Of a stretch of 58,579 nucleotides of DNA, positions 48,816 to 56,688 are shown one piece after another. Source of the DNA: Bacteroidota bacterium (GTDB taxonomy: Bacteria > Bacteroidota > Bacteroidia > J057). Position 1 is the stretch's first letter, and each line of letters starts with the position of its first letter. The stretch covers positions 1 through 58,579 of the forward strand of contig RFHT01000615.1 of assembly GCA_003696835.1 (NCBI GenBank), read 5' to 3'. The notes under the pieces are model-generated. The model ran no database searches, was not told the origin of the DNA, and saw nothing but the letters and a program-made list of their open reading frames with translations. The position numbers and the translations under genes were made by a program.

Positions 48816-49904
48816 TCAACTTTCCAGTTTTAATACAGCAAACTTGCCTTTGTTCCAGCCGTGTACCAGCAGGTAGAGGTGCTGGCTGCCGTCCTCTTGT
48901 GTAATGAGGTGAGGCCACACCTGGTGAATGTTGGTCAGCACGGGAATGTCCAGATCGCCGGGGATGATGGTAGATACCACTTTTTCGCCTGTATGGGCAT
49001 ACACCGGGGCAGATTTTTGGGTAGAATCAATGGGAGAAAGGCCATTGAAGAAGAAGTGCTCTACTTTGTAGGACACATTGCACACCAGGGTGCCCGGGGG
49101 TATGTCCGGCATCAGCTCTACAAATTCGCCCGCCTTGGTAAACTTTACAATTTGCTGGGCAGCACGGTTGGCCACCAGCAGGTATCCGTCATGGGCATAG
49201 ATGCCATGTGCAGTCTGGAACTGCCCGGGTTGGTCACCCTTTCCTCCCCAGGCCAGGCTACCCCAATCCCATTTGCCGTCTTTTTCTTCTATGGTGAGTA
49301 CGAAATCGCCCTTTGAATATCCATGCGTTGCATAAATGATGCCGTCCAGATAGGTAACATCGGTTACCCCAAAGTTACTATCCTCTGAAGCAAAAAACTC
49401 GTTGGCCGGGGCAAAGTTAAACTCCTTTCCAGTGGGTTTATTGATTTCGCTGAGCACATTGCCCTGCAGGTCCAGTACCATGACCCGTTTGCCTTCCTGG
49501 GCTACAGCCAGGCGTTTTTCCCCATTATGCACAAAAAACACGATGCCATGAATATTGTCTTTCAGACGCTCATCCGTACCTATGCGGGTCCACTGGAGGA
49601 GGTCGGGGCTGATGGCACACAGTCCGTAGCCGGGGATACCGGTATAAACTATGCCCGTTTCGGGGTCTTCATTGAAGCCTCCGTGCATGTCTTTTTCAAA
49701 TTCCCGGGCATCTTCGGGAAAGGCAGCCGTTAGTTCCTGATCCCAGGAGAAAATAAAATCGCCCTGGCCCGTAACCAGTTTGGCCTGGTTTCCTTCCGGT
49801 CCGGAATCATGGGAGTGGCCGTGGCCGTCTTGCTCTGCGCCTGCACAGGCAACAAAAAAAAGGCATACGGCAAAAAGAAGCCTGATAGAAACGCTGGTTG
49901 TCAT
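48816..49904 (-). CDS. lipoprotein with propeller-like repeats and His-rich N-terminus
   Basis: A 362-residue protein with a lipoprotein signal (lipobox FVAC, Cys20), followed by a short acidic/His stretch GHGHSHDSG that could bind metal. The rest is beta-rich, with repeating units such as KRVMVLDLQGNVLSEI, FGVTDVTYLDGIIYATHGY, GQFQTAHGIYAHDGYLLVANRAAQQIVKFTKAGEFVEL and LTNIHQVWPHLITQEDGSQHLYLLVHG. These resemble NHL/six-bladed propeller blades. No catalytic residues are recognised. It is monocistronic and convergent with the hydroxy-acid dehydrogenase gene. Confidence 0.7.
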   Translation of the reverse strand: MTTSVSIRLLFAVCLFFVACAGAEQDGHGHSHDSGPEGNQAKLVTGQGDFIFSWDQELTAAFPEDAREFEKDMHGGFNEDPETGIVYTGIPGYGLCAISPDLLQWTRIGTDERLKDNIHGIVFFVHNGEKRLAVAQEGKRVMVLDLQGNVLSEINKPTGKEFNFAPANEFFASEDSNFGVTDVTYLDGIIYATHGYSKGDFVLTIEEKDGKWDWGSLAWGGKGDQPGQFQTAHGIYAHDGYLLVANRAAQQIVKFTKAGEFVELMPDIPPGTLVCNVSYKVEHFFFNGLSPIDSTQKSAPVYAHTGEKVVSTIIPGDLDIPVLTNIHQVWPHLITQEDGSQHLYLLVHGWNKGKFAVLKLES

Positions 49905-50227: not shown

Positions 50228-51010
50228 ATGAAAATGCAATCTTTTTACCCTCACCCAAACAGCCGAAAGCTCCACTTCGCTGCGGGCTTTGTGCTGTTCT
50301 TTCTCATGTTTAGCGGACTCTATGCCCAGAAAAATTCCTTTTTCGTGGGAGCAACTGCCGGGACGAATTTTTCCAAATTCAAATACACCGTGGACCTGGC
50401 AGAGCTGTACTCCGTTTCCAAGCCCCTGGCTGGCCTGAACGGAGGCTTTACCGCAGGGCTTCAGCTCAGGAACTTCACCTTGAGCAGCGGGCTGCATTAC
50501 CTTCAAAAAGGCGGCCATTACGAAACCGATAACTTTATCGATGCTGATGGCACCGGTTTTTTCTCAGCCGACGAGCGCCTGCATTTCCTTTCCATTCCCC
50601 TCCTGCTCGGATACCGTCAACCCCTGACCAGTAACTTTGGGGTTTCCCTCTCCATGGGGCCCTCTTTCAACATAGGCCTGGGCGGAAAAATCACGGAGTC
50701 ACTGGAGTATTATGGCAGAGAAGAGGTATCCACAGAGCATTATACCGTTCGCTTTGGAAGTGGAGTAAATGACGATTACCGCAAGATGCAGCTGGGCTTT
50801 CAGTTTTCGCCCGGGCTGTATGTGGATCTCAACGAACGCAGCAAACTCACCCTGGGCCTCACCTGGGACAGCGGCATGCAGGATTCCTTTAATCCCCGCT
50901 ACAAACAGGCCAATGCCTTTTTCGACGACTACAAAGGCAGGCAGAAAAACCGCTCAACCATCATCACCATAGGGTACGAATTTCACTTTTCCTTTGAAGA
51001 CAAATATTAA
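50228..51010 (+). CDS. outer-membrane beta-barrel protein (porin-like family)
   Basis: A 260-residue protein with a signal peptide (hydrophobic about 18-32, cleavage near LYAQ). It has an eight-strand-like barrel: FFVGATAGTNFSKF, LNGGFTAGLQLRNFTLSSGLHY, FLSIPLLLGYRQPL, FGVSLSMGPSFNIGLGG, LGFQFSPGLYVDLN, and terminal IITIGYEFHFSFED. It is the PF13568 type common in Bacteroidota. It is the first gene of a four-gene operon (3-base gap to the zinc-ribbon gene) that also contains an ExbB/MotA-type channel, so it may be the outer-membrane end of that system. Confidence 0.85.
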   Translation: MKMQSFYPHPNSRKLHFAAGFVLFFLMFSGLYAQKNSFFVGATAGTNFSKFKYTVDLAELYSVSKPLAGLNGGFTAGLQLRNFTLSSGLHYLQKGGHYETDNFIDADGTGFFSADERLHFLSIPLLLGYRQPLTSNFGVSLSMGPSFNIGLGGKITESLEYYGREEVSTEHYTVRFGSGVNDDYRKMQLGFQFSPGLYVDLNERSKLTLGLTWDSGMQDSFNPRYKQANAFFDDYKGRQKNRSTIITIGYEFHFSFEDKY

Positions 51011-51013
51011 GTT

Positions 51014-51322
51014 ATGTTGATCTGTAACAATTGCTTTAGTGAAAATGCCGATGGCACCCTCCGCTGCCATCAGTGCAACATGGAAGGAAACTTCACCTAT
51101 CAGATTGCGGAGGGGAATCCCCTGGAAGCAGTAGCCCTGGAAAAAAAACCGTTTCAGTGTGTCAACTGCGGCTGTGAAACCCCCGGGCAGGAAGCAAAAT
51201 GCGTGCATTGTCATTTTCCGCTACAAAGCCCCACCCGCAACATGCAAAATGGAAACACTTTTATACCCGGGAATGCTCCGGATGTGAGCAGCGGAATTCC
51301 CAGGTATTCACCTAACCCATAA
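51014..51322 (+). CDS. double zinc-ribbon protein
   Basis: A 102-residue cytoplasmic protein with two CxxC...CxxC zinc ribbons: C4/C7 with C18/C21, and CVNC with CVHC around residues 49-70. A short Pro/Asn-rich tail follows. No enzymatic domain is seen. It is three bases behind the barrel gene and four bases before the TolR/MotB-like gene, so it belongs to one message with them. Zinc ribbons of this type often serve as protein- or nucleic-acid-binding modules. Its role beside a proton channel is not known. Confidence 0.8.
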   Translation: MLICNNCFSENADGTLRCHQCNMEGNFTYQIAEGNPLEAVALEKKPFQCVNCGCETPGQEAKCVHCHFPLQSPTRNMQNGNTFIPGNAPDVSSGIPRYSPNP

Positions 51323-51326
51323 TCCC

Positions 51327-52199
51327 ATGGCAAGGAGAAAAACTCAACTATTCAATCTCTCTTTTCTCGACCTGATTACAGGTGCATTGGGGGCCGTCAT
51401 TTTTCTGTTCATCATTACCCCCAAAGGTGGCAGTTCCGCTCCGGATGCCAAACAGCTGGTGATGTATATGGACACCGCCCGCATGAAGGTGTTTGGCGAT
51501 TTGCCCGACAGCCTCAGGTCCAAAAGAGCCGGAGACACCCTGTTTACCGTACTGGTGGATTACCGTCAATTCCCCCAGGCAGAAAAACCGGGACCTATCC
51601 CCCAAACCGCTATTGAGGCGCCGGTCCGCCCGGCACCTACGGCGGCTGCGCCCTCTGGCCCCAGGCCCGAAACAGCGAGCAAGGTAGCTGAAAAGCCCGG
51701 GCAGGCCTCAGAAAAGCCCGTGAAGGTAAGTGAGCACCAGCCTGAGTCCACGCCAGTTTTCAAAGGCGATGCTCCTTCGGTGCCCTGCAAAGTCTCATTT
51801 GAGGTGAGTTGGGCCAATCAAAGCGACAACGTAGATTTTTTTGTGTGTAAAGGCAATGTATGTGTGTATGGCGGTAACAAAAAACACCGCTCCATCGGGC
51901 AGTGGGACAGCGGTAAGTCGAGAAACCGCCTCTTTGGGAACGACCTGCGCACCACCCAGGAAGCCGTGCGCCAGTTTGACCGCATCATCCCGGGCGAATA
52001 CCTGCTGTATGCACAGCTTAAGGAAAGCAAAAGTGGAAACAAAACGGTCAGGCTGAAGGGCCTGATATACACCAAAGGGAAGGCCGGAAAGCAAAGAGGT
52101 GAACACTTTACTAAAACCATTTCGATTGGCAAATCCAGGGTATTGCTGGGAAAGGTCCTCCTCAGGGCCGATGGCAGCTACCAATTCATTCAACAATAA
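51327..52199 (+). CDS. single-TM TolR/MotB-like anchor protein with Pro/Ala linker and C-terminal beta domain
   Basis: A 290-residue protein. A short basic N-terminus is followed by one transmembrane helix (about 8-32, LSFLDLITGALGAVIFLFII) that resembles the helix of TolR/MotB-type partners, including a conserved-looking Asp (D15) inside it. A Pro/Ala/Lys/Glu-rich linker spans about 85-150. The C-terminal domain (about 155-290) is beta-rich (CKVSFEVSWANQSDNVDFFVC.., GEYLLYAQLKESKSG, KSRVLLGKVLLRADG). No OmpA peptidoglycan-binding motif is visible. It is followed by an ExbB/TolQ-type gene, so both likely form an energised inner-membrane complex with a novel periplasmic domain. Confidence 0.7.
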   Translation: MARRKTQLFNLSFLDLITGALGAVIFLFIITPKGGSSAPDAKQLVMYMDTARMKVFGDLPDSLRSKRAGDTLFTVLVDYRQFPQAEKPGPIPQTAIEAPVRPAPTAAAPSGPRPETASKVAEKPGQASEKPVKVSEHQPESTPVFKGDAPSVPCKVSFEVSWANQSDNVDFFVCKGNVCVYGGNKKHRSIGQWDSGKSRNRLFGNDLRTTQEAVRQFDRIIPGEYLLYAQLKESKSGNKTVRLKGLIYTKGKAGKQRGEHFTKTISIGKSRVLLGKVLLRADGSYQFIQQ

Positions 52200-52219
52200 C
52201 CTTACAAAACATAGAGAAT

Positions 52220-52978
52220 ATGTTCAAGACAAAATTACTCCAACTCGTATTCAGCATACTGGCCGCCGTATCGCTATGGCTGGTGCTGATCCTGCTCGGC
52301 CAGTTATTTGAGTCTGTAACTGGCCTCCACCGCTTCTTTGAGGCTCTGGGTGGGTCCACACAGGGCTACATTCAGGCCGTTATTTACGTACTGTTTTTTT
52401 ACAGCTTTTTTGAGCTGTACGAAAAAAAGCGCTCCATCAGATCTGAATTCAATGGCTTTGAGCAACAACTGCTTCCCGAAAGAGACCAGTTGGTGCTTTC
52501 GCCCGAAGAGGTGGCCAAGATTAAGCTCAGGGTAATCAGCCTGGAAAAGGCAGGCAAAGGCTCACTGGTATCCGATTTTATCAAAAAAGCCTGTACCCAG
52601 TACCGCAACGACCAGTCTATACCCGATACCCTTCAGGTTTTCCATGCACAAGTGGAAAACAGCAAGGAAGAACAGGAAGGCAAACTGGAGATAGTGAGGT
52701 ACTTGCTGGGGGCCATTATTTCGCTGGGTTTTATCGGCACCCTCATGGGCCTGTCCACTTCCATCGGCATGGCTCACCTGGCCAAAACGGCTGAAGGCAT
52801 GCCCGAAATTACCCGCCACCTCAATGTGGCCTTTGACACTACCCTGGTGGCCTTGCTGGCCGGCCTGGTGCTCAACTTCCTCTACCACCGATATTTGCAG
52901 GACCTCGACACCTTTTATTCACGCTCCAAATCCTACGTGATCGACAACCTCATCAGCAGGATTTATTCCACTGCCTGA
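52220..52978 (+). CDS. MotA/TolQ/ExbB proton channel family protein
   Basis: A 252-residue inner-membrane protein. Transmembrane helices are at about 8-28 and 50-68, and two more near 155-175 and 205-225. The family core is clear: LGAIISLGFIGTLMGLSTSIGMAHL, then ITRHLNVAFDTTLVALLAGLVLNFLYHRYL. The region between helices 2 and 3 is a long cytoplasmic helical insert. It conducts ions with a TolR/MotB partner. The immediate upstream gene is the likely partner. No separate ExbD or TonB is present, so this is not an ordinary ExbBD-TonB cluster. A strong terminator ends the operon. Confidence 0.9.
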   Translation: MFKTKLLQLVFSILAAVSLWLVLILLGQLFESVTGLHRFFEALGGSTQGYIQAVIYVLFFYSFFELYEKKRSIRSEFNGFEQQLLPERDQLVLSPEEVAKIKLRVISLEKAGKGSLVSDFIKKACTQYRNDQSIPDTLQVFHAQVENSKEEQEGKLEIVRYLLGAIISLGFIGTLMGLSTSIGMAHLAKTAEGMPEITRHLNVAFDTTLVALLAGLVLNFLYHRYLQDLDTFYSRSKSYVIDNLISRIYSTA

Positions 52979-53012
52979 TGAACGAGTTTGCACCTGCATG
53001 CACCATAAGTAG

Positions 53013-53044
53013 CGGCCGGCTCTATTCAGCCGGCCGTTTTCTTT
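53013..53044 (+). terminator. Rho-independent terminator of the channel operon
   Basis: A 9-bp GC stem (53013-53021 with 53028-53036) with a 6-base loop, followed by TTTTCTTT. It lies 35 bases after the channel gene. Confidence 0.9.
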
Positions 53045-53119: not shown

Positions 53120-53974
53120 CTACCGAAAACTCGGGCACTTCACCTGGTCGATGATAAAACTCAGGGTGATATTGGTAAATACATACCAGTCGTCGTTTTC
53201 GGGATTGCCACGCATGGAGCCGGCTGGATTACCCAGGGGATAAGCAGCCAGGTCGGTTCGGCTGGATAACAAGGCAGCTGTGGGATTCTGGGCCGCGAGG
53301 TCTTCCTGGTTGGGGTAATAGGTACTCACATCGTCCAGGTGGTCGGTCCAGGTTTTGCGCAGGCCCGACTCCAGCTCAATGTTCCACTGCCTGCCCAGTG
53401 CATAACGCAGGCCGAAACCCACCGGCACACTGATTTGGGCCAGGTTATAGGGATCGGGGTAGCGGTTGTCGGGATCGGGCAAGTACTGCCCTTCGGTGCC
53501 CAGGGGCTGCAGTTCGATCCACTCGCCATTGAGCCGGGCTTTGGGGTTAAAGGTAAAAATACCGATGCCGGCAAAGCCGTAGGGCGTCAGTTTGGGCCGG
53601 TAGGCATAGGCCCGGTCGGTGGGGATAAAGTCAAACACCAGTTGGGCGCTCATTTCAGTGATGGGCGATTTAAAGCTGAGGTTGCGCCTCACCTTGCCGG
53701 GACGGGAACTGCTGGCATCTGAGGCCTGCACCCAACCGTGCTGAAGGCTGAGCCTGGCACTAAAAATGGAATTGAAGTGGTAAGCAGCCATCAGGCCAAA
53801 GCCAGGCCGTGCAGCCAGCAAAGTAGATAGGTGGTCGTCGCTGAGGTCGCCCTGATAATTGGTGGCTCCTACAGAAACACCAACCCGCAGATACCCCTCC
53901 CGGAGCTGAGCCTTGACATGTGAGCAAATACTGAGCAAAAGCAGCGTGAGAAATAAATAAATGTTCCGCTTCAT
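53120..53974 (-). CDS. DUF6089 family outer-membrane beta-barrel protein
   Basis: Start at 53972-53974 (MKRNIYLF), where the signal peptide begins; an upstream ATG would add 20 residues. The protein has 284 residues with the DUF6089 pattern: YLRVGVSVGATNYQGDLSD, ARPGFGLMAAYHFNSIFSARLSLQHG, MSAQLVFDFIP, LTPYGFAGIGIFTFNPKARLNGEWIELQPLGTEGQ, ISVPVGFGLRYALGRQWNIELESGLR and a C-terminal NITLSFII. It is an envelope barrel widespread in Bacteroidota and of unknown cargo. It is transcribed toward the channel operon, with a terminator in between. Confidence 0.9.
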   Translation of the reverse strand: MKRNIYLFLTLLLLSICSHVKAQLREGYLRVGVSVGATNYQGDLSDDHLSTLLAARPGFGLMAAYHFNSIFSARLSLQHGWVQASDASSSRPGKVRRNLSFKSPITEMSAQLVFDFIPTDRAYAYRPKLTPYGFAGIGIFTFNPKARLNGEWIELQPLGTEGQYLPDPDNRYPDPYNLAQISVPVGFGLRYALGRQWNIELESGLRKTWTDHLDDVSTYYPNQEDLAAQNPTAALLSSRTDLAAYPLGNPAGSMRGNPENDDWYVFTNITLSFIIDQVKCPSFR

Positions 53975-54156
53975 TTGAAAGTAAAAGTGTAAGATTTCAG
54001 TTTTGTTAAGAAAACGATTCCAAACACCATTCATTATGTAGCAACGAAGCCGGACCTATGGGGAACAGCAGATTGCCTACAATGAAATGCTTGTTGAACG
54101 CGTCAGTAGAGTTGTTTCAAATAGAAAAAGGGTTGGTGAGGCTGATAAGTTTATCG

Positions 54157-54744: not shown

Positions 54745-56688
54745 ATGTATTTTCAAAAGTGGATATTAGTTTTTATTGTGCTGGGCTTTTCATGCAAACT
54801 TCAGGCACAAATTGCCTATTGGCATGCTTATTTTGGAGGTTCGGGTTATGATGTTGGAAAGCGGCTCATCCTCCGGCCCGACGGCTCGCTGGTTGTGGCG
54901 GGAGAGATTTACTCTACTGATGGAATAGGCAGCGAAAACCACAGCAGCTACGGCGACGTACTGGCGCTGAAATATTCCACCCAGGGGGTGGTGTTCTGGA
55001 AGGTTACCCTGGGAGGCAGCGGAATGGAAACCCTCTCCGACTTTATAGAAACCAGCGATGGAGGGTATGTACTCATTGGTACGACCAATTCTTCTGACGG
55101 CGACATCACACAGGCCTATGGCCAGATGGATATATGGGTGGTCAAGCTCGACGACCTGGGCAATGTACTTTGGAGCCGCACCTACGGTGGCCGAGGCAAC
55201 GACCAGGGCAAGGCCATCATTGAAACCCAGGATGGGGGCTACCTCATCGGGGGCTCCTCGGGCTCGCTCGATGGCAGCATGGAATCCCGGCATCACGGCG
55301 GGCTCGACAGCTGGGTGGCCAAACTCAGCCAGCAGGGTGAGCTCATCTGGGAAAAACACTTCGGGGGCAGTTCCAGTGAAACCGTAAAACGAATTCATGA
55401 ATACAAAGCAGGGGAATACATGGTGGTACATGCCACCAACTCCACAGATGGGGACGTGGCCACCTCCCTGGGAAAAAACGACGTATGGATCACCCTCATA
55501 GGGGAATACGGCAATATTCACTGGCAAAATACCTACGGGGGCTCGGCCAATGACGACGTGCACGGCAGTTTTATGGATGCCAATGGAGATGTGGTATTTG
55601 CAGGTACCACCTTTTCGGCCAACCATCACATAGACTTCAACCGTGGTAAAGGGGATTTCTGGCTGATGAAAATAAGTGCCAAAGGCGACCTGCTCTGGAG
55701 CCAAACTTACGGAGGAACCAAGGCCGACGGCGCCAATGACGTATTTCCCACTCATGACGGCGGTTATGTAGCCTGTGGGGTGGTGCGGTCCAGAGACATG
55801 GATATACAGCTGAACAATGGCTATTACGATGCCTGGGTGATCAAAGTAGATGCCATCGGAAACAGAATATGGAGCCGGACTTTTGGCTTTGAAGGCAAAG
55901 ACATTTTCAACTCCATTATAGAGCTGGAAAAGGGGGGCTTTCTGGCCATGGGCTTTTCCGAGCAAATACCGGAAGGCACCCAGTTGCCGGGCCACAAGGG
56001 TAGCTCAGATATGTGGATATGCAACATCAGCGACCCCAAACGGGCGGGGGTACATCCCTACATTACGCCGCCTGCCCTGATGGGAAGAGTGGTGGATAAA
56101 CGAAGCGGCAAACCCCTGCGGGCACACATTACCCTTACCGACAACCTCAGCCTGGACTCCCTGGCCAGTACCTATTCACATCCCGCTACGGGCAGCTTTA
56201 TCATGCTGCTGCCCACGCACGGGCTCAGTAGCATCAATGTGCTGGCCAAAGGCTATATGTTTTATGGAGAGGACATCCGCATGGACACGGTTATCTCCAA
56301 AACCTCCATAGAAAAGGAAATACAGCTGGAACCCATTGCCATTGGCAGCAAGCTCATTTTGCGCAATATTTATTTCAATTCGGGTGAATGGGAATTGTTG
56401 TATTCCTCTTATGCAGAGCTCGAACGCCTGCTGGCATTTCTCAAACTCAACCCCAGGGTGGCCATTGAAATCAGCGGCCATACCGACGATACCGGCAACC
56501 GGCAGCAGAAGGAAGAGCTTTCCCTGCTGCGGGCCAATGCGGTAAAAGAATACCTCATGAGCAGGGGCATAGCCGAATACCGGCTGCAGGTAAAGGGCTT
56601 TGGCATGCACCGGCCCATTGCCAGTAATGCCACCGAAGCAGGCAGGCGCAAAAACAGGCGGGTGGAATTTGAAATTATCCGCATGTAA
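54745..56688 (+). CDS. OmpA-family protein with N-terminal propeller-like repeats
   Basis: A 647-residue protein with a signal (about 1-22). Residues about 25-430 hold about seven units of 55-60 residues of form W-x-x-x-(F/Y)-G-G-(S/T)..D....(DGGY-(V/L)..G)..S.DGD......D-x-W-(V/L)-x-K(L/V), as in a beta-propeller of surface-adhesin type. A small carboxypeptidase-D-regulatory-like domain (about 445-520, GRVVDKRSGKPLRAHITL) follows. The OmpA C-terminal domain (about 535-647) has ISGHTDDTGN, LSLLRANAVKEYL, VKGFGMHRPIASNATEAGR and NRRVEF, and binds peptidoglycan. It probably links the cell wall to a surface propeller. Confidence 0.9.
   Translation: MYFQKWILVFIVLGFSCKLQAQIAYWHAYFGGSGYDVGKRLILRPDGSLVVAGEIYSTDGIGSENHSSYGDVLALKYSTQGVVFWKVTLGGSGMETLSDFIETSDGGYVLIGTTNSSDGDITQAYGQMDIWVVKLDDLGNVLWSRTYGGRGNDQGKAIIETQDGGYLIGGSSGSLDGSMESRHHGGLDSWVAKLSQQGELIWEKHFGGSSSETVKRIHEYKAGEYMVVHATNSTDGDVATSLGKNDVWITLIGEYGNIHWQNTYGGSANDDVHGSFMDANGDVVFAGTTFSANHHIDFNRGKGDFWLMKISAKGDLLWSQTYGGTKADGANDVFPTHDGGYVACGVVRSRDMDIQLNNGYYDAWVIKVDAIGNRIWSRTFGFEGKDIFNSIIELEKGGFLAMGFSEQIPEGTQLPGHKGSSDMWICNISDPKRAGVHPYITPPALMGRVVDKRSGKPLRAHITLTDNLSLDSLASTYSHPATGSFIMLLPTHGLSSINVLAKGYMFYGEDIRMDTVISKTSIEKEIQLEPIAIGSKLILRNIYFNSGEWELLYSSYAELERLLAFLKLNPRVAIEISGHTDDTGNRQQKEELSLLRANAVKEYLMSRGIAEYRLQVKGFGMHRPIASNATEAGRRKNRRVEFEIIRM

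Follow-up and report, generated by a model that had tools for sequence, protein, structure and literature searches.

Gene content of the locus

The window, the whole 58,579-nucleotide stretch of DNA analyzed here, comes from a Saprospirales bacterium. Four open reading frames lie head to tail on its + strand at 50228-52978, where the original prediction had placed them, and are separated by gaps of 3, 4, and 20 nt. The gene immediately upstream (48816-49904) is divergent, and a strong terminator-like hairpin with a GC-rich stem and a T-rich tail is found on the + strand 3' of the channel stop (53011-53038; folding z = -5.2). Therefore, the unit consists of exactly these four genes. Beyond it, a DUF6089/OMP_b-brl barrel gene (53120-54034, - strand) faces the operon, a placement that is not conserved in relatives. 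A repeat protein with a C-terminal OmpA domain (54745-56688; PF00691, E 1.2e-20) is encoded two genes downstream of the operon; among the other loci, it has just one distant relative, near L011.

The first gene of the unit (50228-51010, + strand) encodes an outer-membrane beta-barrel protein of 260 aa with a signal peptide, which matched PF13568 in Pfam (E 3.7e-14). Weaker paralogues of the barrel occur elsewhere in the genomes, as expected of a general family. The second gene (51014-51322, + strand) encodes a small double zinc-ribbon protein of 102 aa with two Cx2C pairs, twice over. Its eight cysteines (C4, C7, C18, C21, C49, C52, C63, and C66) were invariant in an alignment of 18 sequences, and its Pfam match to DZR was sub-threshold (E 0.012). 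Since it has neither a signal peptide nor a membrane helix, this protein is best seen as a cytoplasmic adaptor. The invariant cysteines, the PF13568 match, and the abutting genes agree with the prediction that a double zinc ribbon and an outer-membrane barrel share one message.

The channel protein

The last gene (52220-52978, + strand) encodes a MotA/TolQ/ExbB-family channel of 252 aa, in agreement with the ExbB/MotA-type channel that had been predicted. It matched PF01618 at E 2.3e-8, with 34.3 bits against a gathering cut-off of 22.9. The AlphaFold model (pLDDT 86) matched many ExbB/TolQ chains in Foldseek with a probability of 1.00 and TM scores of 0.45-0.6, the best E value being 4e-3 (none below 0.001). 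Hydropathy and the model indicate that the channel probably has four membrane helices, and its cytoplasmic helices would lie at residues 95-155. Thr174 and Thr208 occupy the positions of the family's pore threonines in the alignment and were invariant in eleven diverse members, among which Asp206 was near-invariant.

In a tree, a branch of 4.2 changes per column separated the window group from E. coli ExbB and TolQ and from the two ExbB proteins that the window genome also encodes; the placement of MotA in this tree is not reliable. The best PDB sequence match of a wide channel profile was MotA (E 2e-4). Canonical ExbB-ExbD sets are present elsewhere in the window genome and, therefore, the four-gene unit is an extra system. 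No separate ExbD/TolR gene lies beside the channel in the window or in the loci of its relatives, which leaves the anchor as the only candidate axle.

The anchor protein and its beta domain

The third gene (51327-52199, + strand) encodes this putative motor anchor, or axle, a protein of 290 aa. A short N-terminus is followed by a single hydrophobic helix at residues 13-31, a conserved juxtamembrane stretch at about 40-84, a linker at about 85-150 with 14 Pro and 11 Ala in 66 residues, and a beta-sandwich at about 150-290. The predicted single helix and Pro/Ala linker are thus both present. AlphaFold gave a mean pLDDT of about 90 or more over most of the sandwich. Confidence was below 50 for the helix region and linker and, therefore, the place of the anchor in the ring is proposed by analogy.

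The helix (51363-51419, + strand) is of the trans-pore type and carries Asp15. Of the 20 rows in the anchor alignment, 19 have this Asp; the remaining row is a secreted second copy. In an alignment of ten anchors, some of them with a vWA end domain, F9, S12, D15, G22, and P32 were invariant throughout. Because the helices share these residues, the alignment points to one axle that carries several end domains, either DUF2135-like or vWA.

No Pfam match was obtained for the window anchor or in a set of 20 anchors, and PDB sequence and plasmid searches with the anchor returned no match. A vWA domain was absent from the window anchor and its Saprospirales family and present in the L035/L055 relative. 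In hhalign, the probability of a match to an ExbD/TolR profile was 0.1%. An ExbD/TolR or OmpA-type identity, which the prediction had denied, was ruled out by these Pfam, PDB sequence, and hhalign results and by the fold matches listed, among which neither type appeared. The term 'TolR-like', also used in the prediction, holds for the Asp-bearing helix and fails for the rest of the anchor. Foldseek was not usable for identifying the anchor, as its only matches were antibodies and, weakly, Ig-like/adhesin sandwiches, of which SdrG was the best (E 0.011).

The sandwich (51774-52196, + strand) had been described as a new-looking beta domain, and this did not stand up. It aligned to a set of five DUF2135-type sequences in hhalign with a probability of 90% (E 1.5e-6), although Pfam was negative for PF09906. 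The intermediate anchors of G223, G267, and Rhizobium matched the same set at 98% (E 8e-15), and one of the five sequences is itself a Pfam match to PF09906 (3e-16). Because of these matches and the Pfam-confirmed member of the set, the sandwich is, as judged by profile alignment, a divergent DUF2135-like domain rather than a wholly new one. DUF2135/YfaP-like (PF09906) domains and the anchor have in common a beta-sandwich core, a W..xxx..DVD[LF] motif, and a G-Y strand. In contrast, a conserved RLFGNDLRTNQEAVRQFD stretch in the Saprospirales anchors was not seen in the DUF2135 set.

Conservation of the four-gene unit

With the channel as query, genome contigs yielded 22 loci. All but three are from Saprospiraceae or close groups; the three are MAGs with names of the Phaeodactylibacter/Lewinella/Bacteroidota type only and belong to the same taxonomic order. 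The order barrel, zinc ribbon, anchor, channel was kept in 19 of the 22, and G405 adds one more, so that it recurs in 20 loci other than the window. The carriers include cultivated species, among them Membranihabitans maritimus (L018) and Flavilitoribacter nigricans (L004). L017, L020, and L022 are cut at a contig end and are not among the 19. Wherever the upstream side was present in Saprospirales (20/20 loci), the barrel and zinc ribbon were at the same position. The genes of the unit therefore do not scatter in relatives, while the flanking genes differ among the 20 loci, except in the close kin L006-L008, which have common flanks. Median gaps across the loci were 6, 37.5, and 45.5 nt. Since spacing varies and reaches 319 nt between the zinc-ribbon and anchor genes, the tight gene coupling of the window is not universal.

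Within Saprospirales, channel and anchor co-occurred in 2 of 22 genomes and were both absent from the other 20. Pairwise distances of anchor and channel were correlated (r = 0.95), as were those of the barrel with either (about 0.9), in a mirror-tree comparison. These correlations count little because they were not set against control genes, and shared descent gives correlated distances too. A subfamily profile found the channel in 6 of 396 sampled genomes of the phylum at E < 1e-70 and nothing else better than 1e-10; the subfamily is therefore discrete and uncommon. The window genome was alone among these six in having the barrel/zinc-ribbon layout. The four-gene order, which the prediction had proposed to look for across Bacteroidota, is thus a Saprospirales feature and was not found elsewhere among the sampled genomes of the phylum. 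PHROGs and NCBIfam searches gave nothing useful.

Related pairs among kinase, PP2C, and FHA genes

Outside Saprospirales, channel and anchor pairs were found in G223, G267, G271, G393, and G215, all of the same phylum, and on a Rhizobium leguminosarum plasmid. These loci have the same type of channel and the same Asp helix, their anchors end in a DUF2135-like or vWA domain, and they have no barrel. All six pairs have FHA and PP2C genes around them. Every locus but G215 also has Ser/Thr kinase genes near the pair; the G215 contig starts within a Sel1-repeat gene resembling the tail of the G271 kinase. In L020, a divergent Saprospiraceae locus, genes for two kinases and an FHA protein come after the pair. 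The PP2C, FHA, and kinase identities were Pfam-tested in L020, L041, L053, and L054; those in G271, G393, and G215 were read by eye and by likeness to the tested ones. None of the 20 Saprospirales four-gene loci had a kinase, phosphatase, or FHA gene clustered with the unit within about 10 kb.

In G267, a zinc ribbon-FHA (ZnR-FHA) protein is encoded in the same cluster as the pair. The window zinc ribbon may be homologous to the ZnR-FHA proteins, with an E value of only 0.05, and of 0.001 in one very small set. The simplest reading of the related loci is that the Saprospirales operon would belong, as one branch, to a class of 5:2-type motors linked to kinase/FHA genes. It looks as if the barrel and zinc-ribbon genes stand in Saprospirales where signaling genes stand in the related loci.

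Several other arrangements were seen in these searches. L020 encodes a second anchor-like beta domain (906-1787) between anchor and channel; this copy has no Asp helix but a signal peptide instead. Fusions of FHA with a trypsin-like domain occur in the kinase-linked clusters L053, L054 (6979-8547), L055, L056, and L078 and were Pfam-tested in L053 and L054. The window genome has a ZnR-FHA protein and kinases on a second contig (C809), and these are homologues of the ones that adjoin the G267 pair. A reading in which the genome has the motor's kinase module at this second locus was set aside, as G405, which carries the operon, gave only TonB_C-type matches to the C809 kinase protein. One of the C809 genes (L085, 3329-5164) encodes a single protein that combines a Ser/Thr kinase, a Pro-rich linker, and a TonB C-terminal domain (Pkinase 2.7e-38, TonB_C 1.1e-13); it is clustered with the ZnR-FHA protein and a second kinase frame and was not found in G405.

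Proposed mechanism and alternatives

In the window bacterium and some twenty relatives, the products of the four genes probably form a small ion-driven motor, the moving part of which has an unusual end domain outside the inner membrane. Its design is probably related to, and distinct from, those of the Tol, Ton, flagellar, and Zorya motors. With modest confidence, we read the unit as an ion-driven membrane motor of 5:2 type with two components, an ExbB-like ring and an anchor dimer inside it, together with two accessory proteins. By analogy, the channel protein would form the ring and the anchor helix would sit within the pore, where Asp15 would carry an ion past a ring of threonines. Because of the known chemistry of the channel family, the Asp is expected to take up and release ions against the threonine ring while the channel ring and the axle rotate against one another. 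The stroke or rotation would then pass via the Pro/Ala linker to the periplasmic DUF2135-like sandwich. With more than 60 Pro/Ala-rich residues and the juxtamembrane stretch, the linker could in principle reach far into the periplasm.

The sandwich would be the working end and act on the envelope, with the co-encoded barrel or nearby peptidoglycan as its most likely target. As the one envelope protein that is always co-encoded in Saprospirales, the barrel would be its likeliest partner in the outer membrane. Since related loci outside Saprospirales are without it, the barrel may be optional or merely co-transcribed. The zinc-ribbon adaptor would dock on the cytoplasmic part of the ring, in the place of the kinase/FHA proteins of the related loci, and the whole could then span the envelope. 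The pair without a barrel in those relatives would also fit a functional unit of anchor and channel only, with the barrel and zinc ribbon as bystanders in the transcript. However, both accessory genes hold the same place in 20/20 loci while the flanks change, and we consider this reading improbable.

Another possible explanation is that the proteins sense rather than transmit force. The state of the periplasm or outer membrane would move the sandwich and thereby gate ions or change the ring, and the cytoplasmic zinc-ribbon protein, or kinase/FHA proteins in the relatives, would read out the state of the ring. This would suit the six outside loci and L020, in each of which two or more of the three gene types (Ser/Thr kinase, PP2C, FHA) accompany the pair, and the ZnR-FHA protein that adjoins the pair in G267. 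The 20 four-gene loci have no such gene clustered with the unit within about 10 kb, however, and known members of the channel family generate force; a sensor is, in our judgment, unlikely. Far less probable is an anti-phage system of the Zorya kind. The channel gave weak ZorA matches in PADLOC (best E 7.5e-4), and distant channel relatives lie on cyanobacterial plasmids beside type III-B CRISPR and restriction-type genes. None of the four proteins matched ZorB, ZorC, ZorD, or ZorE, though, and a Zorya identity was rejected on that ground. In addition, the unit is without an effector gene, no defense genes recur in the flanks of the 20 loci, and its spread in Saprospirales looks vertical. The cyanobacterial plasmid proteins themselves (L042, 8785-11364; L043, 8860-11460) belong to the MotA/TolQ/ExbB family, are about 470 aa long, and have two small hypothetical genes after them. 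Their neighbors are type III-B CRISPR genes or a set with an N-6 DNA methylase and a helicase, and they are candidate defense motors.

More tentatively than the motor reading itself, we suggest a class of ion-driven envelope motors in several phyla, wired to Ser/Thr kinase, PP2C, and FHA proteins and built on one Asp-helix axle whose end domain, DUF2135-like or vWA, can be exchanged. In its Saprospirales branch, a barrel and a zinc-ribbon adaptor would replace the signaling genes and give a four-protein machine from cytoplasm to outer membrane. If the linkage is true of the wider class, phosphorylation could switch such motors on or off. Tol-Pal has been reported as hard to find in Bacteroidota (PMC12204202). 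This compact set, with its different axle end and co-encoded barrel, would be a small system for turning ion flow into outer-membrane work in that phylum.

Comparison with known motors

To our knowledge, the well-studied motors of the superfamily all have ExbD/TolR, MotB, ZorB, or GldM as the axle. ExbB-ExbD and TolQ-TolR share with the window pair the channel family and fold and an Asp-bearing single helix in the partner. Their partner is ExbD/TolR (PF02472), to which the window anchor has no profile similarity, and a very long branch separates the canonical channels from the window channel. The original prediction that the layout differs from Tol-Pal, Exb-TonB, Mot, and Zorya agrees with our results, as the partner genes or domains of each are absent from the unit. 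Tol-Pal and Ton motors have TolA/TonB, TolB, and Pal beside them, whereas none of these was found in the unit when neighbors were checked in the window and the 20 loci. The MotA-MotB stator resembles the window pair in the PDB profile match to MotA and in the likely four hydrophobic helices. However, it has an OmpA-type peptidoglycan-binding domain, which the window anchor lacks by Pfam and among the fold matches listed, and flagellar genes, which the window unit lacks. ZorAB is likewise a two-part motor of the same superfamily, but comes with ZorB and ZorC/D or ZorE, while the window unit matches ZorA only, and weakly. GldL-GldM is a Bacteroidota envelope motor with a large periplasmic part; it differs from the window unit in gene content and protein sizes, a distinction made by description, not sequence.

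A close likeness is to TPH-vWA. TolQ-like genes have been found paired with vWA proteins that bear an ExbD-like trans-pore Asp helix, without tolR/exbD, and TPH-vWA was described as a dimeric partner that may rotate within the pentamer (PMC12204202, Mol Biol Evol 2025). The pairing of a TolQ-like channel with an Asp-helix vWA protein is therefore already known. That paper makes no mention of kinases, phosphatases, or zinc proteins, and the searched part of a 2025 survey of MotAB relatives (PMC12505986) has no matching family. Nothing further was found on ExbB/TolQ joined with PP2C, FHA, or Saprospiraceae in a literature search that covered few subscription papers. The literature searched contained no anchor of the DUF2135-like type, no barrel/zinc-ribbon operon, and no link to kinases. 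The vWA anchors of L055, L056, and L078 are likened to the TPH-vWA family by description, not sequence. TPH-vWA and the window pair have in common the Asp trans-pore helix, the tight pairing with a TolQ-like gene, and no adjacent tolR/exbD. They differ in the end domain, which is vWA there and a DUF2135-like sandwich here, and in gene content, with a pair of anchors there and a single anchor with barrel and zinc-ribbon genes here.
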